A stretch of 64,000 nucleotides of DNA from Naegleria lovaniensis (Eukaryota; Heterolobosea; Eutetramitea; Acrasida; Naegleriidae): the NCBI RefSeq assembly GCF_003324165.1, contig NW_025407829.1, forward strand, positions 711,597-775,596, read 5' to 3'. A program made the position numbers and the translations under genes. The notes beneath the pieces were generated by a model, which was not told the origin of the DNA, did no database searches, and saw only the letters and a program-made list of their open reading frames with translations. This document shows, piece after piece, positions 6,486-63,632 of this stretch (its first letter is position 1; every line of letters begins with the position of its first letter).

Positions 6486-8233
6486 TCATGCCACAACGTT
6501 CCTTAATAATGTTTCCAACAGCTTGTCATTTTGTAAAATCGTACTCTTCAAAGAATTAATTTTCTCCAACTTGTCCACAATATTTTGTTCCAATTCTTTT
6601 AGTTGTGCTTGCACGGAGGACACTTCTTGCTCAGTTTTCATCCTCTCTTCGATCAGCCGTTGTCGTTGGAGTTCTACATCCTTCCTCCACATGTCATGTT
6701 CTCGTTGCATGCTGTCAAGATCTTCTTGGATGTAATCCATGGTTTTACCAAGTGGATTCACTTTAGAAATTAGAGTTTGAATTTGTTCCCTTAGAGTTGA
6801 GAGTTCAGTAGTTAATACTTCCTTATCTTTTTCTTTTTTACCTGTTTGAAGAACAATTCCCTTCACTGGTTCCTCAGACGAGGGTTTGGCATTTGGCGTT
6901 TTTCCTGCATTTCGCTTCTTTTCAATGTCACTTTCGTTTTCCATTAGCCTGTTAACTAGAGTTCCTTTTTGTTCTGCATTAGTGTTGTTTTGAGGGGCGG
7001 ATCGAACAGCTACATTCTTCTCAATAATTATTTGTTCTTCTTCCTTGTCTTCAGTATCGTCTGTAATCAAACCTTCCGCCGCTTTTGTTTCCACTTGAGT
7101 TTTTTCTGTAGGCATTTCTTGTGTATCAATGGTTCGAACATTGGTTTTAATTTTTGGAGGCGCTCTTCTCGCTGATTGACCTCGAGATGAGAAAGGCCTA
7201 GAATATTGTGCCAAATTAGGATCTTCTTGATTGTTAAGAGGCTGTTGCTGATCCTCTTGAGCAGTTGTGTTTGGAGTGGAAGGTTTTGAAATCTCCCTGC
7301 CAGAGTTTGGTCGGCTGATGCTGGCTTTTTGCTCAATGGAATTAGGGGTCGTCGATCGCTCTTCTTTCGATGGAGTGGGTGGCTTGTTCGTTACGTTTTG
7401 AGATGCAGAGACACCTCTCGACGATGGTCGTCCTTGATCTTGATTCAAGGATGGAGAGTTCGATGATCCCTGTTGCTGTTGAGGTTTTGATTCTACATTG
7501 GTTGGGGTGTTTGATGGAGAAGGTTGCTTTGGTTGCTGTTGCTGTGGGGGAGGTTGTTGAGGTTGTTGTGACGATGTGGTGGATTTTTGTGGTTGTTTGT
7601 TTGTGGTGGCGGCTCCCGAAGAATCTGATTGTGTACTTGAGGGTGGTGTGCTTGTGTTTTGTTGCTGACCAGCAGCCTCCTTTTTTTTCTTGTCATCCGA
7701 GGCCTCAGTAAAATCCTTATACTTTCCAGATTTGATTTTTTCAATGGCCTCCTTGTATTGATATTTTTCCTTATTTCCAGCTGCTTCAGCCAGCGCTTGG
7801 AAAAACACAGAAATATTCTTTGGCGTTTCTTTGCCCTTAATCATGAGTTGTATATTTACAGGAACATTTTTCTTAACAGTGTGGACAATTACATTGATTA
7901 ATTGCTTTAAGAATAGCGTTTTTTCTTCGTTCTATATACAAACACGTTGATCATTAGGAATTGGTGAATACCATTGCGATTCGTTCGCTATCTACAACCT
8001 ACCGTTAAGTCCTTCTTGGCTTTAAGAAATTCCTCATCAAACAATCCATCGGGATACCCTCGTTCCTTGATCAGACAAAGAACAAGAGCTTTAATAAAGG
8101 CAACCGGAGGTCTTGCCAAGTGTTTGTCCTGAAGAGGAATTTTTGAAACCAACGGTTCCAACTTTTTCTTTGAAATCTCAATACACTTTCGGGTCTCTTC
8201 ATCAAACTCTGACTGCTGTTGTTGTTCGCTCAT
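6486..8233 (-). CDS. IFT54: Intraflagellar transport protein IFT54 (TRAF3IP1/MIP-T3 homologue), two exons
   Basis: Exon 1 is 8233-8003 and exon 2 is 7931-6486, with a 71-nt phase-0 intron, giving 558 aa. The start is an ATG 12 codons before the conserved region; an upstream in-frame start in the 5' leader is less likely. Residues 1-125 match the N-terminal calponin-homology-like domain of IFT54 ('ARPPVAFIKALVL ... GLFDEEFLKAKK', then 'EEKTLFLKQLINVI' and a 'KGKETPKNI' that aligns with the usual G-x-EP-x-x-TN). The middle is a long Gln/Ser/Pro/Thr-rich linker. The last 120 residues are the typical coiled coil beginning 'NPLGKTMDYIQEDLDSMQ'. IFT54 is an IFT-B subunit that binds IFT20 and tubulin, so this gene serves the transient flagellate stage. 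Convergent with the RCC1 gene, 165 bp apart. Confidence 0.9.
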
Positions 8234-8484
8234 GATGGTGATGGCGGTGCGATCGTCGATGATGGAATATTTTTTTTGCAGACTTGTTGTTGTTGTTGTA
8301 CTGAGTTTGGGCGGCAAATTTGTCTCTTGAGGATATTTCAAAATCAATTCATATTAAATAGTATATTATTATTGTGTATTAAATTGGAAATGATAATCTT
8401 AGGTGGTTTAGGTTGTTGTCATATGCATACTCGGGATTGTATGCATACATGGTGTGCACAATTCAAATAGGTCGGTTTAGGATA

Positions 8485-10852: not shown

Positions 10853-13554
10853 ATGATTTCATCTCCTTCGTATCAGTTCCGATGTTTGGGACAACCAGAG
10901 ATTCAACCCTTCCATCAGACCTTTGTGTTTGTAGAAGGCTCTTGGAACGATGATCCACATAATGGCCAAAAAGAGAGTCAAAATTTCTTGATCTATGAAA
11001 TTTCAAATCTTCAACACATTCAGTGCAAAGAAGTCTTTCGTGTGGATGATCTTTCTCAATTGTCCGATAAGAATCGGAAAGAAGCACGTTTGAGTGAAGT
11101 AAAATTGGATTGGGAATTGGCATGGTTATTGAATCAGAAAAATAATTCAAGTGTTGTTGAATTGAATTCAGTCAACTCCAGCTCATCCAATTTGGAGAAG
11201 AAGGATGATGCCAGAAAAATCAGAGCCGTTGGTCTGGTTGGATGCTTGATCAGTTCTCATTGTACATGTAACGAGCATGCAATGATTACGAACTGGACTT
11301 TGCAAGGTGAAATGAGCCAACATGTTGAAAAGTATCGAAATAGATCCAATAATAATGCGGTTGGCTTTGTGAATGGGAGAGCTCTCTTCATGTCCTCTCT
11401 TGGTGTGAATACGCTTCCAGATCTTGAGAAAATACTTGACGATCGTGATGAAAGTATTGCTATTGATAAGGAAGGTGATGATTGCTCAACCACAAGTTTA
11501 GTTCTAGAGCCAGTGCAAATATTTACTCAAAACAATTCTGCTGCAGCAACAACACAATTCAGGGACTGTACAAATATCATGATGGTATTGCCAAGCTCTA
11601 ACATTGCACATAGAGAGTACTCCTTTAGTGGAATTTACTTTGGTGGTTCAGTTTACAGATATTCATTGAAGGAAGATGGATTTGTTACGAGTCATCCATC
11701 AATTCCACTTGTCGATGAAACCCTTTCGAAAAATTTCTCCTTTTCTAGAGGTAGCTTTGGACGATATCCACGTTTTATTCCTTTAATTGAGAATGGTCAA
11801 CGATTGAGAAGTTTTTTCTTCCAGGAAGGTAAATTATACGAATTCGTTTGGAGTGATGCTGAATGTAGCAGCTTGAAAGTCGTTCAACATTTGGAATGGT
11901 TGAACAATGATTTTGATAGTGTGACAAGAATTGGCAATGTTGGACTCTTGCTTGGTTCGAATCAAAGTACCATATTTTTCAGGCCTCAAGAAAAAATTTG
12001 CAATGATGAACCATTTTCTAAGGCAAAAGGAAAGATTTCTGTCTTGAACAGAAAGCTCAATGGTGATGTGTTTTGGTGTGAAGAATCGGAATGTGTTGCC
12101 CAATTCAACAACCAATCACCACAAATGTTTGAAAAGGTACTCTCTTTGCAAGATTTATTACAATTGGAATTCAAACTTGTGAGTGAGCTATTCGATGAAG
12201 AATCTGCTTTGAAAGATTTGGAATTCTCTTGTTATGTACCTCGTGTACAAAACTCCAAATTATTAGAAATTGTGAACCCTTCCAAACTTCATCGTCAACA
12301 ACCAAGAATATCCATTGCTTACCAGTGTGCTGAGAATAGATATAACGACATGGAAATTATTGCAGGAATTGGGTAGGTTGTACATAATAACTCTACAAAT
12401 GTGTTCACACAAAATAATGTGTGGTTTAAACCATTTTTTTCATCAAATTTTCATAACCAATGACAACAGCTGTAAAGAATGTCAAGACAAGTTGGGAGAC
12501 ATTATTAGTGAATCATATGTGGAACTTGAACCTAAAGATTTTGCATCCTATCTCGGAGCTCCAATCATGCATACCACGTCATGGTTCGCAGATCGTTTAG
12601 AATATCGTTATTTTATTTTGGACATGAAGGATGGGAAACAATCAAGTGGAGTCATTAACGTTGCAAGTATTAATGGTGGATGTAGTTCTACAACCACGAT
12701 CGATTTGAATGAATTAGTGAAGAAACGTGACACCAACGTAATGACCGATGAAACTTGCGATACCTTTTCAAAGAAGAATTCAAAGACCTTTATTGGTATT
12801 CTTTCACCCAAATCTCAAATCACACAAATTGGAGAGAGTAGTTCCACCTCACTCTCACGCAGTAACAGAACAAAAACCTAAACTCTTTGAAAAACTTGCG
12901 TTGGAACAATTATTCCAAGTACAGAGTACACAAATTCGTGTGTGTGATCCCTTCTCAGACACTGGTGGAGTTATTGTCCAAAATGTGAAACCTGGATTGT
13001 GGAAATGGGCTCAATATGGCTGTGATTCGAAAGAATATTCAGGTACAGGCAATGTGGCTCAGCTCGTTGCGGTTCATGGTGATTACAAACACTTGTTGCA
13101 AGATCCTAAAATTTGGATCGTTCCAGAAGGCACTTATGGTCACACACTCGATCGTTCTAGAAAAATTGAAAAGACTGAATTTCATGAACAAGAATTGGAA
13201 GGAGGATGGTATGTCATGAAATTGGGAGTTGGTGTCGATGTTGCAATGGCTGGAATTTATGATCAACAATATTTCAACGATGCCTCCACATTGGAACTTG
13301 AAAAGAAACAAAAACCTTCGGCTCTTGATCTTAATTTTAAATTTAGTTTTCAATCGGAATGGCAAGAATATGTGAGTAAGGTAATGGAGCAAAGAGGCTA
13401 TCCAAGTAGTATTCCTGTACCTTATGGTATTATTTCTTCGAGTGGTTATGGAGATGGATGTTATGCTTGTTTGTTTAAGAAGAGTGAGGATCATGTGGTT
13501 GCTGTGAAATTGGTGTTTGTTAACGAAACTAGTCACAGTGATGACGATGAGTAA
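10853..13554 (+). CDS. Uncharacterised 845-aa protein, three exons, DUF4241-like C-terminus
   Basis: Exons 10853-12372, 12470-12795 and 12863-13554 total 2538 nt. The apparent frame break near 12.8 kb is resolved by a 67-nt GT-AG intron (12796-12862, phase 1), which joins two otherwise unlinked frames cleanly. The start is the first ATG in frame, in an A-rich context. Residues 1-520 are not recognised; they contain repeated short beta-like segments ('YSFSGIYFGGSVYRYSL', 'FFFQEGKLYEFVWSD') that could be a propeller. The last 230 residues begin 'QIRVCDPFSDTGG' and end 'GIISSSGYGDGCYACLF', a spacing resembling DUF4241-type proteins (start 'DP', end 'GDGxY'). That similarity is from memory and weak. 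No signal peptide or membrane segment. Function unknown. Confidence 0.7.
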
Positions 13555-31743: not shown

Positions 31744-31890
31744 TTGTTAATATTTTTCGTAGAGTTTTGGCGCGCGCGGGAATGAAAAAATTCTCAAACA
31801 ACAATTTTATAGGAATATCATTGGAACTTGACGAACGAGAAGAGTTTCAAAAAAATAGACACAACAACAAAATCATCATCATCGTCAATA

Positions 31891-33084
31891 ATGATCAATG
31901 ATAATGATGAGAATATTGATTTTTCTCCGACAAGTTTTAACGAGATCCACCATGAACCCTTTATTGATGATATTATTTTTGAAATTGTTCAATTCTTTGA
32001 ATCGTTGTTTATTGTTCAAGTTTGTATGAAAATTTCGAAACAATGGAGACGAGTATCATTTCAAATTCCTCTCTCATTATCATTCGCAGAAAATTACTTT
32101 AAACAAGTTCCTGAATCAATCATACTTTTAGCTAATTGTGAATGTTTGAAGAATTTGGTTTCTTTGAATCTGAAACACAACGAAATTGGCAATGAAGGAG
32201 TCAAATTTATTGCTACAAGTGAATGGTTGAAGAATTTGACTTCTTTGAATCTAAACATCAATACAATTGGCAATGAAGGAATTAAATACATTGCTACGAG
32301 TGAATCATTGAAGAATTTGACTTCTCTGGATCTGTATGGCAATGAAATTGACAATGAAGGTATTAAATATATTGCCAACAGCGAATGGTTGAAGAACTTG
32401 ACTTATTTAAATCTTAGCAGCAACAAATTTCACAATGAAGGTGTTAGTTATATTTCTAACAGTGAACATTTGAAAAATTTGACTTCTTTGAATCTTAGCA
32501 GCAATAGAATTCGTTATAACCGTGTCAATCATATTTCTATCAGCGAATGTTGGAAGAATTTGACATCTTTGAGTCTGAGCAACAATGGAATTGGCAATTC
32601 AGGCGTTAAATATGTTGTTAATAGTGAATGGTTGAAAAATTTGACATTTTTAAATCTGTCTCGCAGTGTGATTGGTAATGAAGGCGTCAAATATATTACT
32701 ACAAGCGACTTTTTGAAGAATTTGACTTCTTTGAATCTACGTAGCAACAGAATTGGCAATGAAGGTGTCAAATATATTGCTGCAAGTGAATACTTAAAGA
32801 ATTTGATTTCTTTGGAACTGTCTGAGAACCAAATTGACAGCGAAGGTGCCAAATATTTTGCTACAAGTGGATGTTTGAAGAATTTGACTTGTTTGGATCT
32901 TCGTAGCAATAACATTGACAGTGAAGGGGTCAAATATATTGCCATAAGCGAATCACTGAAACATTTGACTTCTTTGGATCTTAGATACAATGCTATTGGT
33001 ACTGAAGGAGCCAAATATATTGCTGCAAGCGAGTACTTGAAGAATTTGACTTCTTTGAACCTGCACGGATTTAATTGGCAATAA
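31891..33084 (+). CDS. F-box-like N-terminus plus 27-residue leucine-rich repeats
   Basis: Single exon, 397 aa from the first ATG; the frame is open 21 codons upstream without one. Residues about 18-65 ('IDDIIFEIVQFFESLF ... KISKQWRRVSF') resemble an F-box. From residue 84 onwards there are twelve ribonuclease-inhibitor-like repeats of exactly 27 residues, with the consensus LKNLTSLNLxxNxIGNEG followed by VKYIAxSE. They would form a short solenoid for protein binding. The repeats are nearly identical in DNA, so unequal crossing-over can change their number. The protein stops in the middle of repeat twelve. Divergent from the BTB gene with 147 bp between starts. Confidence 0.75.
   Translation: MINDNDENIDFSPTSFNEIHHEPFIDDIIFEIVQFFESLFIVQVCMKISKQWRRVSFQIPLSLSFAENYFKQVPESIILLANCECLKNLVSLNLKHNEIGNEGVKFIATSEWLKNLTSLNLNINTIGNEGIKYIATSESLKNLTSLDLYGNEIDNEGIKYIANSEWLKNLTYLNLSSNKFHNEGVSYISNSEHLKNLTSLNLSSNRIRYNRVNHISISECWKNLTSLSLSNNGIGNSGVKYVVNSEWLKNLTFLNLSRSVIGNEGVKYITTSDFLKNLTSLNLRSNRIGNEGVKYIAASEYLKNLISLELSENQIDSEGAKYFATSGCLKNLTCLDLRSNNIDSEGVKYIAISESLKHLTSLDLRYNAIGTEGAKYIAASEYLKNLTSLNLHGFNWQ
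32140..33081 (+). repeat. Twelve 81-bp tandem repeats encoding LRRs
   Basis: Units begin at 32140, 32221, 32302 and then every 81 bp to 33031, each starting GAA-(codon)-TTGAA(A/G) and encoding one leucine-rich repeat. The last unit is cut by the stop codon after about 51 bp. There are no length changes between units. Confidence 0.85.
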
Positions 33085-33640: not shown

Positions 33641-33648
33641 GAGTTTCA
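33641..33648. repeat. Left copy of 8-bp target-site duplication
   Basis: GAGTTTCA immediately left of the transposon's left inverted repeat; the identical 8 bp directly follows the right inverted repeat. Confidence 0.85.
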
Positions 33649-33672
33649 CGGGGAGGGGGATCGAGAGCGTAG
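33649..33672 (+). repeat. Left 24-bp terminal inverted repeat
   Basis: Begins CGGGGAGGGGG and ends GAGCGTAG; it is the exact reverse complement of 34109-34132. Confidence 0.9.
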
Positions 33673-34108
33673 CTTCCATCGACTCAATCAGCAAGCTAAA
33701 TTCCATTTTGGGCCTAACTTTATACGTCAATCTGAGCCAAAGAGTTCTCGGTAATTGAGGACATGGATGTCGAGACTTTAATTATACACAATTATTGTGC
33801 ATTATACATGCATTGAGGAAAGTTTGGCAGGTCACATTAGTATCTTGCTGCATTTTGATTTCGAGATGCTGATTTCTAGCTGTTGACGAGCATTAAGATG
33901 CGAAAAACTCAGGTGTAAATCTGCTTGGACGAGTTTGATCAACAAAGAAAAATACTAGAAATTCATATAACGATCTACTTTAACTTCCAATAAGGTACAC
34001 GTACCCTTATGTACGCGCAGTTTTTGATTCATTATGTAATGCCACAATTCGTGTGTTAAGATGTACAAATATAGTTAGTCCCAAAATGGAAGGCAAAAGT
34101 CTGACTGC

Positions 34109-34132
34109 CTACGCTCTCGATCCCCCTCCCCG
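34109..34132 (-). repeat. Right 24-bp terminal inverted repeat
   Basis: Begins CTACGCTCTCG and ends CCTCCCCG on the + strand; it mirrors the left TIR without mismatch. Confidence 0.9.
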
Positions 34133-34140
34133 GAGTTTCA
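34133..34140. repeat. Right copy of 8-bp target-site duplication
   Basis: GAGTTTCA directly after the right inverted repeat, identical to 33641-33648. Confidence 0.85.
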
Positions 34141-34185: not shown

Positions 34186-34792
34186 ATGCCCAAAAAACCA
34201 AACGAGAGGAGCAACGCTCGGTCATCAGCAAGATCCACCACGCAACTTAATACGCCACATGGCCACACTTCACCCAAAAAGAAGAAGAAGAAGAATCAAG
34301 AGAATGACACCGATGATGACGATATCAAGTATTTAATCGAAGTACAAAAGAAAAACAAAAAAGAAATGAAACAACAACAAACAAGCAACAACAATAACAA
34401 TACTGATCGCAACAAGGATCAACGTGTATTTGTTTACATCCAACCTGTTGATATAGGGACACAATTTTCAAAAATGGAAAATCTTTTTTCAAATATATTG
34501 TTGTAACTTTTGTTTCCCTATGAGAGTATTGTATAAATATTCATCTTCCGATTGAAGTTGAATGATTGGAAATACGAGGCCCAATTGGTTTTTTTGGTGC
34601 TCAATTAATCGCTTTCCTGTACTAGTGGTTGAAGTCTTTTCTGAAACTCTAAAGAGAGAGAAAGTGGATCACCTCAGAATCACCTTGATTGACAATGAGG
34701 AGTTGTTTGAATGTGGTGGAACACTCTTGGATGTGTTCAAAGAACGTCATTTCAACTGTATCGTGAATGTTGTAAAATTCAAAACTCCGTAA
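34186..34792 (+). CDS. Small Lys-rich protein of unknown function, two exons
   Basis: Exon 1 (34186-34502) and exon 2 (34579-34792) join across a 76-nt intron with a GTAACT donor in phase 2, giving 176 aa. Residues 1-75 are basic and Asn/Gln-rich with a 'KKKKKK' run. After the junction the protein reads 'NWFFWCSINRFPVLVVEVF' and 'LIDNEELFECGGTLLDVF', a compact alpha/beta-looking segment that I cannot assign. The intron is inferred from phase alone; if it is wrong, the first exon would be a 106-aa protein. The transposon lies just upstream, and the next gene starts 35 bp after the stop. Confidence 0.5.
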
Positions 34793-38700: not shown

Positions 38701-41700
38701 ATGTATTTCATGTGTTAATGTTTTGTTGTTATTTAACATTTTGTACAACAATATATTTTTCAATCTTTTCCATCTTTTCCAATTTTCTATTTTTCAAAAT
38801 TGTAAAATATATATTGTTGTAATGGAATTGACAATAGTTGGCTTTCATTGTGCTCAGAAGGTCAATCCAGTGTTGGATTTAACATTTTAGGTTTCTTTTT
38901 TATTTTCATTTGCTTAATTCTTGTATTCTCCATCAATGTTGGTATCAAGTATGTGCGAGCAAGAAGAGCCAAGAAACGAGATTTGAAAGAAAAGGAAGAA
39001 ATTGAAATGCATCTCTCCTCGATCAACACAAATGTGAACAATAGAGAGGCTCGAACGGCCTATGCCGATCGAAACATGAGTCAACATTATGGATCTAATA
39101 ATTTAGGTGTGAATATTGAATTTGAGAATTTGTCACTCACGGTTGAACAAGCCGGTGAGCACAAAATAGTTCTCAATAATGTTTCAGGAATGATTAAGCA
39201 CTCGGAATTGACTGGAATTATGGGATGTTCTGGAAGGTTTGTTTTTTCGTTAGCTTTTTTTCTTTAATTCCTATTTTGGTTAAAAAAAATTTAATATATG
39301 GTTTTATTTTGTCGTGCGATCCCTAATAATGAAACAGTGGAAAAACAAGTTTCATTACCTCTCTTTCCGGAAGAGCTTATTATGGACAACGAACTGGAAA
39401 AGTCAAGCTAAATGGACAAGAGGACGATTTAACACGATTCAAAAAACTTGTTGGGTTTGTTCCACAAAATGACATTATGCTTCCCTCAATGACTGTTTAT
39501 GAGACCTTGTACTTTGCTGCCAAATGTCGATTGGACAAGAGCAAAACCAATGAACAAGTTGAAAATTTGGTATCAAGTATCATTTCAGTTTTGGGATTGG
39601 AAGATGTCAAGCATTCACTCATTGGAGATGAAAAGAAGAGAGGAATTTCTGGAGGTCAGAAAAAACGTGTGAATATTGGAATGGAATTATCAGCAGTTCC
39701 AAGTGTCTTATTTTGTAAGTTGAGTGAAATTTTATCCAAATTTGGTTCCATAACATTTCATGTATTTTCAAAATGAATGATGAATCATGAATATCAAAAA
39801 TTCGATGAAAACACACACAGTGGATGAACCAACCAGTGGATGTAAGTATAAAATGTGATGAGAACCAGTATGGAATAGTAATTTTGAATTTGGAATATTA
39901 ATGTTTTCAACACAAAATTATTTTCACAGTGGACTCTTCAACCTCAAAGGAAATTATTGAAATTCTTAGAAGTATTGCCGTGAATCAACATTTAACCATT
40001 GTGACCGTCATTCATCAACCTCGATATGAAATCTTTACCATGTTCCATAAAATCATGCTTCTCGGAAAAGGAGGAAGAGTGGTGTACTTTGGTCCAAGTG
40101 TGAAAGCTATGGATTATTTCCAAAGTCTTGGTTTTCAACCACCTGTCAATGTCAATCCAGCAGATTTCATGCTTGACATTATTTCAGGAAATGTTTCAAG
40201 AGAACAAGATACTCATTTCGATCCAGAACAATTATTTGAAATGTGGGAAGAACGATCTCATTTATGGAGTGGAGACAATTCTCAAAAGACAATATCCGTT
40301 GATAATTCTCCAGCAGTGGATGCATCTCCTACGAACTTGACTCAACATGATTTGGAAGAATCGAATGATGCAGCCACTGATTCTCATCATACACAAATTT
40401 CACACCATCATCGAGAAGATTCCCATCCATCTCTTTCACATCAAAGTGAAGATTCAATGGATTGTTCGTATGAAGCTCTCAAACAAGAACACAATTCAAG
40501 ACATGTAAGCTACTTTTCACAATTCATCATGTGTCTGAAGAGATGTATTTTTCAAAGTACAAGAGAGACAAAATCATTTGTGTTGGATTGTTTCTTGGTC
40601 TATATTGCAGGATTGGCCATTGGTGTGATATTTTACGATACTCGATACATTGGTCCACCATTGACTGAAATTATTGAACAATGTCCTGAAGGTAAGTGTC
40701 ACAACGTGCGAGTGAATGAATGGTTCTATCAAAATATTTTTCTGTCATGTTTTAATTATTTGAAATAATTTTGTAATTTTTATTTTGAATCAATTATTTC
40801 AATGAAAACACAGCAATGAGATACAAGTGTGCACTCCCAGTCGATGATCCAATTATCACCATGGGAGCCATTCTCTCTATGGGATTGGCATTGTGTGGTG
40901 TCATGAGTTCATTAAGTAATTTTGGAGATGAAATTGTGGTCTTTATTCGAGAATATGAAAGTAACATTTCACCTCTCATGTATTTCTTAGCAAAGAATTT
41001 GATGCAAATTCCAATCATATTTTTAACTCCTGGTATTTTCATTTCCATATTTTACATTATCAGTAACCCTCAAGGAGATGTTTGGCAATAGTAAGTAATA
41101 TTTGTGTTTTTTTTTAATTCATGAAATGTTGATGTGAATTCATTGAAAAATTCTAACTTTGGACCAAACATTCATTGAAACTCCAACTTGACACCAAATT
41201 CAGTTATTTGGTACTTTTCAATGTCAATTTTGTGAGTTATGGCATTGGTTACTTGTTATCCACACTCTTTCCTTCTTCCTTTTCCAAAGTAGCTGGAGTC
41301 GTCTTTGTGGTCATTAACAATTTAATTGCAGGAATGAGACCAACCATTCCTCAAATGAATGACATGTTCTTCCCAATGCCTTATATTTATTCACTCTCCT
41401 ATCTTCGATATGCAACAGAAGCTCTCTATTTATTTGAAGTTAAGAAATATACAAGTGTTTATTCTGTGGAAAGTGGAATGGAATTATTGGGTTATCAATT
41501 TTCAGATCAAACCAAATGTGTTTGGATTCTTCCATTATTTGGAATCTTTTATAGAATTTTAGCCTATCTGTCACTTGTATTGTTACCTCCTGGAGTTTAT
41601 GTGAAAAAATTGTGGAGAGGTTTATTTAATTACAAACAGCATTGGAAAAAGATGAAGGAATGGATGGAGAGGAAGAGATTATTTTCCGCACGAGGGAATG

Positions 41701-41747
41701 CGACACGATTGGATTCGCATCAATATCGTGATTTGGAACTTTATTGA
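35703..41747 (+). CDS. ABCG-type half transporter with a very large Cys-rich ectodomain, seven exons
   Basis: Exons 35703-38698, 38838-39236, 39338-39714, 39821-39841, 39930-40691, 40814-41090 and 41204-41747 total 5376 nt (1791 aa). The chosen ATG opens a signal-peptide-like stretch ('LVPCSVWTLVASIIMVA'); an in-frame ATG at 35556 is possible. Residues about 35-1005 are extracellular or lumenal, N-glycosylation-site rich, ending in a Cys-rich region with CP-x-G repeats ('CPAGFYCLGPS', 'CPEGTF', 'CEAGYYCENP'). One helix (about 1012-1035) precedes the ATPase: Walker A GCSGSGKTS (Lys about 1134), 'PQND' Q-loop, signature 'RGISGGQKKRVNIGMEL', Walker B/D-loop LFLDEPTSGLD, 'VIHQP' H-loop, 'GKGGRVVYFGP'. 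A six-helix ABC2 membrane domain ends the protein. The layout matches plant ABCG24/28-like transporters, with a larger ectodomain. Substrate not predictable; it should work as a dimer. Confidence 0.9.
39821..39841 (+). other. 21-nt microexon encoding the Walker B/D-loop of the ABCG transporter
   Basis: The 21 nt between the AG at 39819-39820 and the GTAAGT at 39842 encode, with one base from each neighbour, LDEPTSGL. Both flanking introns (105 and 88 nt) are phase 1 and splice in frame. Without this exon the frame holds but the Walker B Asp-Glu and the start of the D-loop are lost. Confidence 0.85.
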
Positions 41748-42592: not shown

Positions 42593-45346
42593 ATGGCGAG
42601 TTACAATGAACAATCACACTTGTCTTCATCTCCCAATTCGCCGTCTTCGATGATGTTTACAAAAACAATTCTTTCGAAACCGACTTCTTCGTCTTCGCTG
42701 CTGTCAGTTGCCAGTGCGTATACCACTGGTTCGACGTCATTGCCCAATCATCATCATGGACAGGTATTGACATCTATTGGAGGATTGTTATCGGTTTCGT
42801 CGTGTTTGACAGGTTCGAGTGTTTGTTCGGCTCCTTCAGAAGCATCATCGCTGTCACTTGTCTCTTCGATGGATGAAGAGGTAGATTTACGTCAACAACT
42901 TCTCGAAGATGATTTTACTGGAATTGATTCAAAGAATTCATGTCAATGCTGCCAAAGTTTGTTTCAAACTCGACCATCCTCCTTTCCAGAAGGTCAACAA
43001 TTACATCCTTCAAATGAGTGTCCAAATGTAAATAACAATAGAATTAATGAAAACAATCATGAGCATGAGGAATATACACAAGAAGATGAATCTCATGAGG
43101 TTGAAGATTGGTGGAAATTTGAAATTTTCCACATTCATCAAACCCTCAAAGAAGAAGACCCCTCGACCTCACCAGCTGTCACTAATCAAACACCAGCCAC
43201 GACTGTTTCTTCTTCTTCAAACTCGATCGCCTACGAAGATTATTCTCCAATTCTCTCAGCTCCTTCATGTTTAGGTTCTTCTCCACTCATTTCCTCTTCA
43301 CCACTTTTAAATAGTCCTCGCACCAATTTTATATCTAATTCTCCAAATACGGCGTCATCCCTGTTGCAAGTGACATCGAATAATGAAAATGAACACTTTT
43401 TAGAAGCATTGTATTTGAATCGATTGTCCAATGCCATTCAAAGAAAACAAAAGAAATTGGAACAAGCTCTCAAAATTCACCAATCGAACTGTCAAGAATC
43501 TGCTTCGATTGGTCCACAAATTGTCACCTTTGTCTTGTCAGAATTGAAATTAGACGAATTAGTACATTCGAAATTGGCTGGAACGAGAACGTTACTCGTT
43601 CATTTAGCAGCTCGACATAACCGATTAGATATTTTGGAATTTTTAAAATCATGTTGTTGCGATGAAAAGTGTGAAAAGAAAGCTTGTCAACATTCAGAAA
43701 CATCCTGTTGTTGCTGCTCTCCTCAATCTCCTCTCCCAGAGACAAGTGACAGATCTTGTCAACCTTCTCATATCCAACATTCCTCTTCATGTCTCTCTCG
43801 ACGTGTGGCATTATGGACTTGTATCGACTCGAACGAATGCACTCCATTATTTTACTCCTGTCAAGGTTGTTCCACATGCAATGCTCACGATTGTTGTGTA
43901 TTTTTATTGGTTCAACTTCAGACCTTAATGGAACGAACGTGTTCTTCTTCGTCGTCGTCGTCGTCGTCAAATATTTCACACTCCGCTCAGTACGACTCGA
44001 TATCCATTCACAAAGCAGATCGATTTGGAAATCTTCCCATTGCCATGGCCTTTAAAAAACGAGATTGGAAAATGTGTGATTTATTGCAATTATTTGGAGC
44101 TTCTCTAGATGCCAATCATGGATCTTTTGGAGAGAGTCTTCTTCACACAAGTGTACGAGATTTAGATTTCTCTCGAGTCGAGTATTTGAGTCGTCATTGT
44201 CCCAAATCCATTCTTAAAAAGAATCAAAAAGATGAAAATGCACTCTTTGCATGTTTAAAAGATTATCGAGTGGCACAAGCCAAATCAGCCACTTCATTAG
44301 CAGAATATCACAAACAAGCGTCGTGTTCTCCCATTCGAACGTTGGTCAATAAGAGTGCACCCAAAGAAATTCGATGTCAATTCATTCAACAATTACTCGA
44401 AAATGGAAATGAATTATTTGGACGAGAAGCATTCGAAAAGGCACTTGTAATGAAAAATCAACATGGAAGAAATTTCTTTACCGAAGCAGTTGCATTCGGT
44501 GACGTTTTAGCCATCAAGACCATTCTCAATTATTTCACATTACAATATTTGGTGAATGTTTCTTCGAGACATTACGAACGATCGCGTGAAAATCATCGAA
44601 AATTGTTGGACTCGCTCATATTTTCAAAAGATCGACAAGGAAAGAATGTGTTACACTTGTCGTTGGAATTTGCAATGAAACGAATGAACAAATTTAATCG
44701 AGAGGATTATCAATCGTGGTTGGAGAGTTTTTGTTTTATTTTGACATGGTTGGAAGATTTTACCTTGTCGTTTAGAAATTGTCAAAAGTCAATGTCGTTG
44801 ATGAACCCTCCTGAATGTGACAAACTCTTTCATGAAAAGGATTTTCAAGGAAAATCAGCGATTGAGTATATTGAATTTGAAATTTCCTCAAATTTGGAAT
44901 GTGACAAGAGATGGTTGAATGCTTTGGATTTGTTGAAATGTTTCGAGTGCAAGTATGTTGCAGCGAGAACAATGGAATCGATTCATGGAATTACAACTCA
45001 TGCCAATGTCATCACAACACCCAAACACAAGAAGGGAATTTTGTCAGCTCTGTTTATATCGAGTCAGTTGTCTGATGAACATGTTCATCCAAAATCAATG
45101 AGTAGTAGTAGAAGTAGTAGTAGAAGTAGTAGTAGCAGTAGTAGTTTGACGTTGAGTTCCACGAATTCTTCATTGACGGCACATTCAGTTTCCTCTTCCT
45201 CATTGAGTGATAGTCTATCCTCTTCGAGTCAATCGTCATCGAAATCAACGAGTCAGCACAAAGCTGCCTCGATGTTGAATCCACGCCAACAACATGGAAA
45301 TGTGTTGAAAGAATTTATGAGGAAATTGTCCATGAAAAAGCAATAA
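42593..45346 (+). CDS. Ankyrin-repeat protein with Cys-rich insertion and Ser-rich ends
   Basis: Single exon, 917 aa, ATG start. Residues 1-260 are Ser/Pro/Asn-rich. Ankyrin-type helices appear from about residue 335 ('TRTLLVHLAARHNRLDILEFL'), 485 ('DRFGNLPIAMAFKKRDWKMCDLL'-like unit), 510 ('SLLHTSVRDLDFSRVEYL') and 620-690 ('NVLHLSLEFAMKRMN'). A Cys-rich insertion ('CCCDEKCEKKACQHSETSC' followed by CCC, near residues 355-380) and a second cluster ('CQGCSTCNAHDCC', near 424-436) fall between the first two repeats and could bind metal. Residues about 835-895 are poly-Ser/Arg, encoded by AGT repeats at 45099-45144. No catalytic domain. Partner and role unknown. Confidence 0.7.
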   Translation: MASYNEQSHLSSSPNSPSSMMFTKTILSKPTSSSSLLSVASAYTTGSTSLPNHHHGQVLTSIGGLLSVSSCLTGSSVCSAPSEASSLSLVSSMDEEVDLRQQLLEDDFTGIDSKNSCQCCQSLFQTRPSSFPEGQQLHPSNECPNVNNNRINENNHEHEEYTQEDESHEVEDWWKFEIFHIHQTLKEEDPSTSPAVTNQTPATTVSSSSNSIAYEDYSPILSAPSCLGSSPLISSSPLLNSPRTNFISNSPNTASSLLQVTSNNENEHFLEALYLNRLSNAIQRKQKKLEQALKIHQSNCQESASIGPQIVTFVLSELKLDELVHSKLAGTRTLLVHLAARHNRLDILEFLKSCCCDEKCEKKACQHSETSCCCCSPQSPLPETSDRSCQPSHIQHSSSCLSRRVALWTCIDSNECTPLFYSCQGCSTCNAHDCCVFLLVQLQTLMERTCSSSSSSSSSNISHSAQYDSISIHKADRFGNLPIAMAFKKRDWKMCDLLQLFGASLDANHGSFGESLLHTSVRDLDFSRVEYLSRHCPKSILKKNQKDENALFACLKDYRVAQAKSATSLAEYHKQASCSPIRTLVNKSAPKEIRCQFIQQLLENGNELFGREAFEKALVMKNQHGRNFFTEAVAFGDVLAIKTILNYFTLQYLVNVSSRHYERSRENHRKLLDSLIFSKDRQGKNVLHLSLEFAMKRMNKFNREDYQSWLESFCFILTWLEDFTLSFRNCQKSMSLMNPPECDKLFHEKDFQGKSAIEYIEFEISSNLECDKRWLNALDLLKCFECKYVAARTMESIHGITTHANVITTPKHKKGILSALFISSQLSDEHVHPKSMSSSRSSSRSSSSSSSLTLSSTNSSLTAHSVSSSSLSDSLSSSSQSSSKSTSQHKAASMLNPRQQHGNVLKEFMRKLSMKKQ

Positions 45347-51454: not shown

Positions 51455-52880
51455 ATGTCCGCTTCTAAAGAGTATGTTGTTTTTGATTTTGTAAATGTGG
51501 AGAGTGATCCGAGACTGAACGGGTTCTTTTTCAACATTTTTTGAATAATGAATTTATTTCATGATGAACGTTTTGAATATTTTCAAATATTGTTCATATG
51601 GTTGTTCCATGCCCCCCAATGCGTTGAATTGTTGTTGATGATTTTATACTCTGGTTCCATCTTCAACTCTGTCGTTGCACATTCCTTGCAATGAAATGTT
51701 CATGAAAATTTTGCACCTCTCATGGCTCATGATACATTCCAACCGCGAACATTTCTTTCGCTATTCAACCCTCTCATTGTCGTTCATGAACAATAGTCAA
51801 ATTTTCGACACTGTTCTCGACGCCATTGGAAACACTCCTATGGTTCGTTTGAATCGCGTTCCAAAGAACCATGGTTTGGAATGTGAAGTTTTGGTCAAGT
51901 GTGAGTTTTTCAATGCTGGCGGTTCTGTTAAAGACAGAATTGGCAAGCGAATGCTTTTGGAGGCTGAAAAGAGTGGTCGTATCAAGCCAGGTGACACTCT
52001 CATTGAACCAACATCAGGTAATACTGGTATTGGTCTCGCATTGACTGCAGCTGTGAAAGGATACAAGATGATTATCACATTGCCAGAGAAAATGTCCCAA
52101 GAAAAGGTCTCTGTTTTGAAAGGTTTAGGTGCAGAAATTATTAGAACCCCAACTGAGGCTGATTGGAACTCACCAGAGTCGCATATTGGTGTTGCAGCTC
52201 GTTTGAAGCAAGAAATTGGTGACACTGCACACATTTTGGATCAATACAAGAATCAAGACAATCCATTGGCTCACTATGAAGGTACTGCCGAGGAAATTAT
52301 TAGACAAACTGGTGGTAAAATTGATGTGATTGTCATGGGTGTAGGAACTGGTGGTACTGCCAGTGGTGTTGCAAAGAAGCTTAAGGAAAAAATTCCAGGT
52401 ATTATTGTTGTGGGTGCTGATCCAGTTGGTTCATTGTTGGCCGATCCAGAACATGATAAGGTTGGAACTTACCAAGTCGAAGGTATTGGATACGATTTTG
52501 TTCCTGATGTTTTGGATAGAAGTTTGATTGACATGTGGGTCAAGACTGAAGATAAACCATCATTCACAATGGCTCGAGAATTAATTAGAGAAGAAGGTCT
52601 CTTGTGCGGAGGTTCATCAGGCACTGCCATGTATGCTGCTGTTGAAGCTGCTAAAAAGCTTGGATTAGGTCCTGATAAGAGAGTAGTTGTCTTGTTGCCA
52701 GACTCTATTCGTAACTATTTGAGCAAGTTCTTGAATGATGATTGGATGATTCAACGTCAATTCATGGAAGGTGATCCAATTGCCAGCAGAGAACGTGAAA
52801 TGGAACAATTGAAGAAGAGAATGGAGGTCTTGGAGAAGGAAATTGCTCAATTGAAGAATGCCAACAATAGTCAGAACTAA
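51455..52880 (+). CDS. CBS: Cystathionine beta-synthase (catalytic core only), two exons
   Basis: Preferred model: exon 1 51455-51471 (six codons), intron 51472-51796, exon 2 51797-52880, giving 366 aa. The ATG lies in a normal leader context, the donor is GTATGT and the phase-2 junction is exact. Otherwise the protein would start at an ATG at 51696 (with a presequence-like leader) or 51786. The fold-type II PLP domain is clear: '[11 protein letters not shown]', '[11 protein letters not shown]' (PLP lysine at about 51), '[13 protein letters not shown]', '[10 protein letters not shown]', '[10 protein letters not shown]', '[12 protein letters not shown]'. '[14 protein letters not shown]' and the terminal '[13 protein letters not shown]' are closer to CBS than to bacterial cysteine synthase. 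It condenses serine with homocysteine in transsulfuration. There is no N-terminal haem region and no C-terminal Bateman pair; a 40-residue coiled coil replaces it. Confidence 0.9.
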
Positions 52881-53172
52881 TTTTTGGAGAGTTTCAAATT
52901 GTATTTCTCACAATTTTCACTAACTTCAAATATCGTCGAATAAATTTTTATTGACCAATGCTTTGTATTCGTTCCCAATTTCAAATTGCTTCACAAACGC
53001 AACATTCCAACAATAATTGGAACCCGCCGTTACACTTCAAAAAAAAATACGTTATCTTGATTGCTATCCCAAAGGCTTTGGCTGCATTTTCATCAATAAC
53101 AAGCAAGGCTTTGCAAGCCATATTATCCCGAACAATAACAAACATCCATATAGGAATAGCAATTCATTGAAT

Positions 53173-56100
53173 ATGAACAACAATCTCGACAAATATCTTT
53201 CCGAGCTGAAGGCCAAAAGTTCTTCATCATCCAATAACAGTACTAATAACAACTCGAGTGCCACAACTTCTTCCACAGCTGTTTCCAATAGCTTTACATT
53301 TAAAAGTAAATCAACAGCCTCCGTCAGTCAGAATCAAGCACTTCCCACAAAATCAACTAGAACCAATGTAAATAAGACCTTCGGAACAGCAATAACAACC
53401 CGATCGAATCCTTCAGCACAAACCACCACTTCTAGTGATACCCCTTCGGAAATATTATCAGCCTATGGATCAATTTTAAATAATAATAACAACAACAACA
53501 ACAATACCAACAACAGACAACAAAATCACAATGCTCCTTCCATGGCCATAAAGAAACGAAAATTTGACGATTTCCATGAAGAGGATCATCACGAATCTCC
53601 GACTGAAGAAAAGCCTTCGTCATTTATCACTGCCTCTACTCTGCTGAATAGCAAGTCGTCCAATACTGCTTTGAATTCCAATAACACCTCATCATCGTTC
53701 GTACGACCCAGTGTACGAATTAAACCAAAAGAAAATGGCAGTATCACGAGCAATTTGACTGTCAAAAGTAATAATATCACCACTACTGCCACAAATAGCA
53801 ACAAATCAAGAAAATTGTGGAAAGACAAAGACGAAGAAAATGCAGAGCTGGACGAGTTAATGTCATTTTCATCCACAAATGGCACAAAACAACAGTCAAT
53901 TGATGAAATCGTCATTACTGATGATATTCTTGATGAGGATGAACCAATTTTAACACCTCCAGATTTCAACTCCAAAAACAATTCTGAACCTACAGCACAG
54001 TCATCGAATAGCAAAACAGGTTTTGACCATGATCCTATTCTTGACGAAGACGTTCTTGGTGTTGATTTAATTTTGGATGAAGAAGAAGAGTATCAACGTA
54101 ATAATCTCAATGATGACTCCACATTACAGCATTCATCTACCTCAATCAATAAGACTAGCATTGCAAATGGCTCGAGTACTAGTGTAATTAACAAGACCTC
54201 TTCGACACCAAAATTTCAACCTCCACCCACAAAGAAATTTACCTTACCTTCAAAAACCAGTAGCTCATCCTCGTCAGAGCCACAAACAACAACAACCAAC
54301 ATACAGGTCTCAAAGAGCATTTTACCAAAAGCCTCAACAAAAGTGGCTCCACAAACACCCAAATTTCCTGCTAAATCTTCCTCCTCTTCGACAGTTCAAA
54401 ACTCAAAATCTGAAGCTGAGTTACTGGAAAGTTATGACAAATTGTCGCGAGAGCTTGTTGCCCTATTGACAGACTGTTTGGATTATGCTGATAGTCTTGA
54501 CCCGAATAGCGAAACCTTGATAGATTTCATGTCACAAAAAGCTCAACTCGAAGCGTTGAGGCAAAATCTTTCAGATTCAATGTCAAATATTTCCTCGTCA
54601 TCAACTACAAGCACCACCAACAATGGTTTTGCAACGCCCTCAACTCCTGCCTTCTCATCGTCTCGCACTGTGACAACACCATCTCCCTCTATTTCTTCTG
54701 CTTACGGCAGTAGTAGGCCACAAACAACCTTCTCTTCCTCGACCATTCCAACAAACAATTACAGCTCTTCAAGTAAGAATGTCACTGTTTCTTCCGCCAT
54801 TAACAGTTATGCGAGAAGTAATAATCACACCTATGAGTTCAATAACAACAATGATGACATGCAAGATGACGACTATTCTCACTATTCCAACTTTGATTCG
54901 TCGCCCACAAGCATTAGAGTTGATGATGATGAAGATGTTGTTTTCACAGGCAGTCAAAAGAGCTCAGCATTTCCCACAACAAGCTCATCCAATAACTATG
55001 CTGTCAATGTTGATGAAGATGACGGATTTGGTGCAGTTATTCCATTCGATAATAACAATAATGACAACTATTCTTCAAGATACAATAATAGTAGCAGCTC
55101 ATATTCATATAGCAGCTCGAGCAGTAGCAGTCGAATGCGATCCCAAACACAATCTGAACATGCCTCTACTTCTCACGACAATTCCTATTATGCCAATGAA
55201 AATTTCGAATGGAGCAGAGAGCTCAAGAGTACCCTTAAAGAAGTGTTTGGTATCAATTCATTCAGAAATTTACAATTGGAAGCAATCAATGCTACACTTT
55301 CAGGAAGAGATGTTTTCATTATCATGCCAACTGGTGGAGGTAAAAGTTTGTGTTACCAACTTCCAGCAATTATTGGTTCTGTAGGTGTGACCATTGTCAT
55401 TTCTCCACTGCTCTCCCTTATTCAAGATCAAGTCATGTCTCTCATCAACTTGGACATTCCAGCTGTTTTCCTTACGGGTGAACAAGACTCTGAAACAACC
55501 AAACAAATTTACAGAGAATTGGCCTCATCAAATCCAAGCTTCCGTCTTCTCTATGTAACACCTGAGAAAATCTCTGCAAGCGCATCATTTGTAAACATTT
55601 TACGAAAGCTCTATGATCGTGGACTTTTCAAGAGAGTTGTTGTCGATGAGGCTCACTGTGTGAGTAATTGGGGACACGATTTTAGACCTGACTATCGAAA
55701 GTTAGGCGTATTCAAGGACGAATTTCCCGATGTTCCACTTATTGCTCTTACTGCCACCGCCACTTCACGTGTTCAACAAGACATTATTCATCAACTCAAT
55801 ATTAAGAATTGTGTCAGTTTGAAGGGCTCCTTCAACAGAACTAATTTATATTACGAAGTGAGAAAAAAGGCTTCTTTGGAAAAAACTGCAAAGGAAATTT
55901 CGGATTTTATCAATGACAAGTATCCCAATCAATCTGGAATTGTGTATTGTTTGAGTAAGAAGGATTGTGAAAAGATGGCTGAAGAGCTCACCTCTCTCGG
56001 TCACAATGTTGGAGTGTACAACTCAGACGTAGCGGCAGCTGATAAGCAAGATGTTCATGAAAAATGGAGTCGTGACGAGTTGAAAATTATTGTAGCTACC

Positions 56101-57480
56101 ATTGCTTTTGGTATGGGAATTAACAAGCCGGATGTACGTTTTGTCATTCACCACAGCTTGCCCAAATCCATCGAAGATTATTATCAAGAATCAGGAAGAG
56201 CTGGCAGAGACGGTCTCGAAAGCCACTGTATCTTGTTCTATTCATATGCTGATAAAGCTCGTCAGCAAAAATTTTTGGATAATGAAAAGGCTAGCAAGAA
56301 TGGCTATGAAAACATTAACAAGATTGTTTCCTATTGTGAGAATGATTGTGAATGTCGAAGAGTTGTACAGTTGAGACACTTTGGAGAATCTTTTGATCCA
56401 GCTCAATGCAAAGGAATGTGTGACAATTGCAAAAATGAAGCTCCAGTCGAAAAGAAGGACTACACCAAAGAAGCATCATCTTTCCTCAAATTGGTCAAAG
56501 ATATTGGAAATTTCAAATCGACCATGTCGCACATTGTTGGAGTTTGGCGAGGTTCTAAGGCATCTAAAATTAAGAGCTTACAGCATGATAAATTGGACGG
56601 ACATGGAGCAGGAAAAGATCTCAACAAGAATGTTGCTGAAATTCTAGTATCGAAACTCATTTGTGATGGATATTTACTTGAAAAAGTTCATGTAAATGAA
56701 CAGTATGGTGGTAGTTACAGTCAACTCGGTGTTTCATCGTCAGCCGAAAGAATCATTCAGGGACGAGACAAGTTTGAACTTCTCGTGAGAAGCAAATCCA
56801 AAAAGACCAAAGGTTCTCTTGAAAAGATGTTGACAAAGGGATCTGCATCCTCTACCACAATTAATTCCAATACAAAGAAGAAGAAGGAGTTTGAATCCAT
56901 GTTGAGCACTGCCCTTCAAGATAAGAGATCAGAATTGGCGAAGCAGAAAGGTCTTCGTCCTTACAACATTTTGGCTTCAAAAACTTTACAAGAGTTGATC
57001 TCCCAACAACCTCTTGATATTGAGTCCATGTCAGCAATCAGCGGAATGGGTAAAAATGTTATGGCAAATTATGGTCTAATTTTCTTGGAATTGATTCGAT
57101 CCATGAGATCGAAAGAAATGGGAGATTGCCAACCACTTACAGATGCTGAAAGAAAAGAATTTAGTGAAAAGTACAAAACTTCGACCAAGTTGAATATTCG
57201 AACAGCAGCTTCGAAAACACCTCAACAACAAATTGAAGATGACAAGAATGATGATGAGTTAGATTTGAATTTGGACGATTTGGAAGATATCACTGATCAA
57301 GTTGGCAGCAGTAATGTTAGTGCGGTTGAACACAATCAAAACTCAGATATTGACATTTTAACTACTGAAGAATGGGAAAGTTTAGAAGATTTGGTTGAGC
57401 AAGAGTTTGGTGAGCCATCTCAACCTCCACCCAAACCCTCAGCAAAGAACCAACCAAAGTACAGGTTTAAAAATTTATAA
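53173..57480 (+). CDS. RecQ helicase, BLM/Sgs1 type with RQC and HRDC domains
   Basis: Single exon, 1435 aa from the first good ATG; the frame is open 52 codons upstream but starts at a TTG. Residues 1-670 are a long Ser/Asn/Thr-rich disordered tail with acidic patches. The helicase covers about 680-1015: '[12 protein letters not shown]' (motif 0), '[14 protein letters not shown]' (I), '[12 protein letters not shown]' (Ia), '[18 protein letters not shown]' (II plus aromatic loop), 'ALTATAT' (III), '[10 protein letters not shown]' (IV), '[10 protein letters not shown]' (VI). A zinc-binding set follows ('CENDCECRR' then 'CKGMCDNC'), then the RQC winged helix, and an HRDC domain at about 1250-1320 ('[17 protein letters not shown]'). 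All catalytic motifs are intact. Expected work is double Holliday-junction dissolution and fork repair in the nucleus with a topoisomerase III partner. Confidence 0.93.
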
Positions 57481-62511: not shown

Positions 62512-63632
62512 ATGCAAAGTCAAATCATGACTTACACCAAATTCGTGAGAAGCACTCTATTACGAGTGGCCAACAAGGAAACTGCAGCTGAACAAACCAA
62601 ATACTTTAAACATGTAAGTGCACTTGCCCGAGGACGACCATTGGAAAACGAGTTAGTTACTCAACCGAATCATGATGCACAGGTCATTGATTTTCATGGA
62701 TTAAAGGCTCCGATGGTAGAAAAGTGTTGGAAGGAATCACTCAAAGATCCTCTTCAAACGAAATTTCCAAATGTTTCGGATCAGTTGAAAGTTGCCTATG
62801 AATTGATGAAGAGTAAATATTTTGAAGAGAAGAATGTTGGAATTAAGGTGAGTGAAGCAATGATGAAATGATTGAAATATTTGAACCATTTAATGATGAT
62901 ATTATTGAAATATTTCTAAATTTGGAAAAAATTATTGGTATGAAATATTGGAATATACCTCATCAGATACTAGCTGGAAATGTTTCAAAAATTATTCCAA
63001 AACGAAAAAAGAAAAAGACTGGACAAGATTCCATAGAAGATGCATTGAACGGCCTAAAAGTCATTACCGATCTTGATGAACAATTATTTCAAGATGAACA
63101 TATTTATGATTGGGGAACTTGTGATACATTGAGGTAATTATCATGACATGAATATTGTTGATTGATCATTTATTATAGTTCTCAAGTAATTTGTGAATTA
63201 ATTAAGAGAGATTCTTCATTGGGTTCAATTGTTCAGCAATGGAAAGATTCTTCAAATATTTGGCAACAACGAAGTGCCTGCGTGAGTTTTGTCAAAATTG
63301 CTAAACATGGAGAGTTTAATGATATTATTTTTGATATTTGCTCCACCACAGTTCAAAATAAGGAAAGATTTGTGCAATTGGGAACGGGATGGGTGTTGAG
63401 AGAATTGAGTTTGGCAGATTTGGATGCTGTGACCATGTTTATTAAACGAAATTATTCTAATTTCAGTCGAGAAGGTCTGAGATATGCCATTGAAAAGATG
63501 GATTCCAAGTTGAAATCGAAATTATTGGCTTATTCAAAGGGAGATTCACAAAGTGAGGTTGAAGAGGAATCGTCTGAGGAGAGTCATGGCGCTAGTAGTG
63601 GTGAAGAGATGGAAGATCAATATGAAGAATAA
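62512..63632 (+). CDS. DNA alkylation repair (AlkD-like HEAT) family protein, three exons
   Basis: Exons 62512-62847, 62967-63133 and 63179-63632 total 957 nt (318 aa); introns are 119 nt (phase 0) and 45 nt (phase 2). The ATG is the first in frame. The protein is all-helical, with 'YFKHVSALARGRPLENELV', 'FHGLKAPMVEKCWKES' (matches the G-(L/I)-x-x-P-x-V block of AlkD-like proteins), 'LFQDEHIYDWGTCDTL' (the D-x-W-x-x-x-D block), 'WKDSSNIWQQRSACVSFVK' (the W-x-x-R-x-A block) and 'RFVQLGTGWVLRELS' (the V-x-x-G-W-x-L-R-E block). AlkD excises N3/N7-alkylated purines by base-flipping-independent capture. Family call is good; glycosylase activity is not shown. The acidic tail is an addition. Confidence 0.8.

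Follow-up and report, generated by a model that had tools for sequence, protein, structure and literature searches.

A 484-bp element in the window (the whole 64-kb stretch of DNA that was analysed) is best read as one copy of a MITE-like DNA transposon of the non-autonomous cut-and-paste type, presumably mobilised in trans, and we put the probability of this reading at about 0.93. There is good support for a DNA transposon insertion that is complete, lacks an ORF and is flanked by an 8-bp target site duplication (TSD). The assignment as a non-autonomous DNA transposon follows from the terminal inverted repeats (TIRs) taken together with the perfect duplication abutting them, the lack of coding capacity, the lack of Rfam and tRNA matches and the intergenic position. 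As a genomic parasite the element is of an ordinary kind and its transposon footprint is ordinary too; its parts and the neighbouring ORF are located in the window as follows.

33649-34132: the element, 484 bp, with exact 24-bp TIRs and abutting 8-bp direct repeats
33641-33648, no strand: left TSD copy GAGTTTCA, the same 8 bases as 34133-34140
33649-33672, plus strand: left 24-bp TIR, G-rich, starting with CGGGGAGG, exact reverse complement of 34109-34132
33673-33700, no strand: left spacer of 28 bp from the outer to the inner inverted repeat; gaps are needed to align it with the 17-bp right spacer
33701-33746, plus strand: left arm of the subterminal inverted repeat, its first 19 positions being the conserved part; 34 of 46 positions complementary to 34046-34091
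33747-34045, no strand: non-coding core, with no open stretch above 49 codons and no Rfam match
34046-34091, minus strand: right arm of the subterminal inverted repeat, pairing with 33701-33746
34092-34108, no strand: right spacer of 17 bp between the inner arm and the outer TIR
34109-34132, minus strand: right 24-bp TIR, exact reverse complement of 33649-33672
34133-34140, no strand: right TSD copy GAGTTTCA, the same 8 bases as 33641-33648
34186-34506, plus strand: neighbouring ORF of 106 aa, outside the element, with no Pfam family at E 0.001

The original prediction had described a 484-bp ORF-less element with perfect 24-bp TIRs, a perfect 8-bp target duplication and a second, imperfect inverted pair inside it, and all of this was reproduced. 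The TIRs at 33649-33672 and 34109-34132 were exact reverse complements at 24 of 24 positions, and GAGTTTCA abutted both ends with 8 of 8 bases identical. When the boundary was shifted from -3 to +5 (nine boundaries), a flanking repeat of 8 bp was obtained only at the boundary listed above and repeats of 0-6 bp elsewhere. The structure is thus real and its limits are unambiguous. Over its full length of 46 positions the inner pair (33701-33746 and 34046-34091) was complementary at 34, and among the 19 outermost positions it was complementary at 18. The length of 484 bp was as predicted, and the longest open stretch in all six frames was 49 codons. Direct repeats inside the core (33747-34045) were short, two-copy and 8-14 nt only, the Rfam search of the element gave no match and the tRNA search found none in it. 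MITEs are under about 800 bp in size, and the element is below this limit. Its G+C content was 71% in the TIRs and 37% in the inner part, as compared to 37.5% in the whole window, and GGGGAGGGGG was confined in the window to the two TIRs. The earlier claim that the G/C-rich ends are unusual was therefore borne out for the TIRs, but it does not extend to the interior, which resembles the host in composition; the G/C-rich character is limited to the TIRs.

A target duplication originates from a staggered cut, as is established for DDE transposons. We infer that a transposase encoded elsewhere would act in trans by binding the 24-bp ends, and perhaps also the subterminal repeats, and would excise the element. 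The element would then be joined to an 8-bp staggered break, the repair of which would leave GAGTTTCA on each side. To judge from the sequence, taking out the element together with one repeat copy would restore intergenic DNA in which GAGTTTCA stands once. The TIR and TSD pairs showed no differences in 32 pairs (24 + 8), from which pairwise divergence is at most 8.9% (95% bound), and for the TSD pairs alone this bound was 31%. A recent insertion is allowed by these values. The imperfect inner repeats are unusable as a clock, because the two ends of the element may differ by design.

As a control for chance, 100 copies of the window generated with a first-order Markov model were searched for perfect inverted repeats with arms less than 6 kb apart and more than 50 bp between them, and flanking direct repeats of 3-12 bp were sought. 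In 89 of the copies no inverted repeat was longer than 14-16 bp, in 10 the maximum was 17-21 bp, and one copy had none of at least 14 bp. An inverted repeat of 24 bp was found in 0 of the 100 copies (maximum 21 bp), and the longest flanking direct repeat in any of them was 4 bp. The real window contained 12 inverted repeats of at least 14 bp. The 24-bp TIR pair was the longest of these, followed by one of 18 bp that consisted mostly of a TTG repeat and was without flanking duplication. Among the other 11, a flanking direct repeat of at least 3 bp was found for one, with a length of 3 bp. Coincidence does not account for the arrangement of TIRs and TSD. These results, together with the absence of an Rfam match, argue against the view that this is no transposon and that an inverted repeat, either functional (a regulatory hairpin, for instance) or due to chance, happens to lie between direct repeats, and we consider that view very improbable. 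The single-strand fold of the element, which was better than those of all 100 shuffles (z -5.8), could be taken in favour of a hairpin, though such a fold is expected of any element with long TIRs; following as it does from the TIRs, it adds nothing to the case.

Within the transposon reading, the superfamily of the mobiliser was considered next to published families, the comparisons being with extracts of the cited papers. CACTA/EnSpm elements make TSDs of 2-4 bp, and piggyBac and Kolobok elements have TTAA as target duplication. Both the CACTA/EnSpm and the TTAA-targeting elements are ruled out by the 8-bp duplication, which is GAGTTTCA and not TTAA. The EnSpm families described in the extract of PMC12730594 have 3-bp TSDs and CAC..GTG ends, and the element has one of the three terminal CAC positions; the earlier statement that an 8-bp TSD excludes CACTA is in agreement with this. 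Kolobok, which has been reported from Naegleria, has 5'-RR ends according to the extract of PMC9587614, and the element fits one of these two positions. The original prediction had further pointed to hAT, KDZ, P or a new family. The lengths are compatible with hAT, KDZ and P, but the list omitted Mutator and also Merlin (PMC8101967, in extract).

The likeliest mobiliser is hAT-like, at somewhat below even odds, with the remaining probability spread over Mutator, Merlin, KDZ, P and any lineage still to be described. As a hAT-superfamily MITE, the element would be moved by a host hAT transposase. hAT elements are described with TSDs of 8 bp and TIRs of 10-25 bp, ranges that include the 8-bp TSD and 24-bp TIR found here (PMC3942097, in extract), and hAT families with 5-, 6- and 7-bp TSDs exist too (PMC12730594, in extract). 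The CGGGGAGG end fits four of the five specified positions of the plant hAT TIR pattern [T/C]AGNGNNG given in the extract of PMC6027215, a degree of fit that was reached by 1.6% of the plus-strand 8-mers of the window (1021/63992). The element also has subterminal repeats, the kind of repeat that the hAT N-terminal region binds in addition to inverted terminal repeats (PMC8097297, in extract). The start CGGGG fits three of the four specified positions of the extracted rule YARNG. However, the second base of the TIR is G where this rule, (T/C)A(A/G)NG, has A, and the end of the element thereby departs from it. The TSD fits neither of the two positions of the Ac pattern, a count from one insertion only. 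One of the two specified positions of the Buster TSD consensus nnnTAnnn is matched, and the TSD thus departs from that consensus as well, with only one copy of the element seen (PMC3517528, in extract). The extract of the same paper describes Mar, a hAT MITE of Drosophila, which like the element is short, non-coding, bounded by TIRs and flanked by an 8-bp TSD. The Mar TIR, CAG(G/A)GGTAGGC, is also G-rich, but it is 11 bp long in comparison to 24 bp and has A instead of G as its second base (PMC3517528). Among the terminal rules tested, that of hAT fits best, yet with the departure at position 2. Most reported DNA-binding motifs of hAT-derived CGG-binding proteins contain CGG (extract of PMC8097297), and the CGGGG start of the TIR offers a weak lead towards a CGG-binding hAT protein.

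Mobilisation by Merlin, Mutator, KDZ or P is the other sub-case of the transposon reading, and it is likewise tentative, falling short of an even chance. P elements make TSDs of 8 bp and Mutator elements (MULEs) of 8-10 bp. KDZ, P and Mutator are compatible with the element, matching it by length alone. For KDZ, Zisupton and one Dileera family make 8-bp TSDs, the same length as here and the sole feature compared (PMC12730594, in extract). If the inner arms are included and gaps allowed, the inverted repeat has a length of 98 bp at the left end and of 87 bp at the right end, which exceeds the usual hAT TIR and speaks for a superfamily other than hAT. Merlin elements have been reported from Discoba with TIRs of 24-462 bp and TSDs of 8-9 bp, and the element agrees with them in both respects (PMC8101967); Naegleria is named 0 times in that paper. 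On the other hand, Merlin elements have terminal GG whereas this element ends in CG, and no direct repeat is left if the boundary is set one base further in. The element differs from Merlin elements, and from Zisupton and Dileera, also in that no transposase was found in the window. We regard the element as working in the manner of a hAT-type MITE, but, as the terminal CG departs from the rules of both hAT (CA/TA) and Merlin (GG), we have not filed it as a member of either. A lineage that has yet to be described, probably heterolobosean and characterised by CGGGGAGG ends, 8-bp duplications and bipartite ends, is unlikely. In each bipartite end the 24-bp TIR would form the outer part and an inverted repeat of 19 bp the inner part, the spacers between them differing in length (28 and 17 bp). 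With such ends, the transposase could read two separate sites per end, asymmetrically arranged.

The rest of the 64-kb window was searched for further copies. A 20-mer of the TIR, with up to 3 mismatches, matched just the two known ends, and when the element was compared by blastn with the remainder of the window, 10 matches of 12-22 bp resulted, every one with E above 1. A scan of the window for TIR and TSD pairs allowed up to 3 mismatches in 16, a TSD of 5-10 bp and an element length of 80-4000 bp, and it ignored repeats composed of only one or two kinds of letter. It returned the 484-bp element, the same element read one base off and 6 further candidates, all of them weak and each with 3 mismatches. 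Based on Pfam, a transposase family was found in 0 of the 67 listed ORFs of at least 100 aa, of which 30 were scanned at E 0.001 and 37 at E 0.1; exons below 100 aa were left out. MITEs are families of many similar copies per genome with an autonomous partner that shares their TIRs, and within the window neither a second copy nor such a partner was found. In viral contigs the TIR 20-mer, the subterminal-repeat pattern and the joined empty site each gave 0 matches, and blastn of the element against phages and plasmids at E 0.01 gave no match. These misses are weak negative evidence, because the virus, prokaryote, phage and plasmid collections contain no eukaryotes. In the genome_contigs collection (257 billion bases) the TIR 20-mer had one match, in Microvirga makkahensis. 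It was rejected as a chance match, since about 0.5 such matches would be expected in a collection of this size; it was also single in the 8 kb examined, with 179 bases to one side. A paired 10-mer TIR pattern was found in one viral contig, IMGVR_UViG_3300007790_000142. This candidate was rejected too, as the 10-mers sit in separate terminator-like hairpins (CCCCTCCCC-AAA-CGGGGAGGGG) and the contig, by eye, departs from the TIR of the window directly past the 10 bases. At 1101-1604 of that contig a 149-aa ORF is flanked by two terminator-like GC hairpins whose stems resemble each other (CCCCTCCC), and a search by pattern can take this hairpin pair for TIRs. In open-licence PMC, a search for Naegleria with transposon or MITE gave no title or abstract on the element among the matches listed, and the first 12 letters of the TIR together with 'terminal inverted' gave no paper.

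Upstream of the element lies a leucine-rich-repeat ORF (31828-33084), the stop of which is 556 bases from the left repeat copy. On the other side, the ATG of the listed 106-aa ORF at 34186 is 53 bases past the last base of the element, as had been noted earlier for the distance to the start codon. That the element influences the expression of the gene at 34186 is speculation from this distance alone. A further open frame from 34562 to a stop at 34792 follows downstream, and the 106-aa ORF may be the opening exon of a gene with introns, though no intron was identified. Elsewhere in the window, Pfam domains were split across two neighbouring ORFs in three places on the plus strand, namely ABC2_membrane_7 (39929-41747), DNA_alkylation (62512-63632) and FERM_M (2222-2970), probably due to spliceosomal introns. 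A MIP-T3/IFT54 intraflagellar-transport gene in at least 2 pieces (6486-8347, minus strand; PF17749, PF10243) suggests a flagella-building host. An ORF with a DUF4241 domain (12748-13554, plus strand; E 1.4e-17) was found amid the eukaryote-like window, and a 1487-aa ORF (53017-57480, plus strand) had a complete RecQ helicase architecture with DEAD, Helicase_C, RecQ_Zn_bind, RQC and HRDC domains. The 917-aa ORF at 42593-45346 gave 0 matches in the PDB sequence search. A 401-aa ORF at 51675-52880 (plus strand), with a PALP domain in Pfam, was near cystathionine beta-synthase catalytic domains, with a best E of 2.4e-134 among the 60 PDB matches listed of 127. Human cystathionine beta-synthase has a C-terminal regulatory module; this ORF seems to be without one, since the best PDB match, among the same 60 of 127, stops at residue 370.

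The G+C content of the window, 37.5%, fits the 35-37% reported for three Naegleria species in the extract of PMC6125883. Together with the intraflagellar-transport gene and the density of eukaryotic genes, which seem to be interrupted by introns, this points to a Naegleria-like heterolobosean as the putative host. Table 3 of that paper gives 379 'DNA' repeats for N. lovaniensis, with EnSpm (38) and PiggyBac (29) as the sole named types. The DNA transposons of this species are largely unclassified. As EnSpm, PiggyBac and Kolobok all misfit the 8-bp duplication, an answer on the superfamily would add to a thin Naegleria catalogue. The exact ends of the element, with a 24-bp TIR and a subterminal repeat, provide a handle by which a single search could reach the mobilising transposase in a poorly catalogued protist genome.
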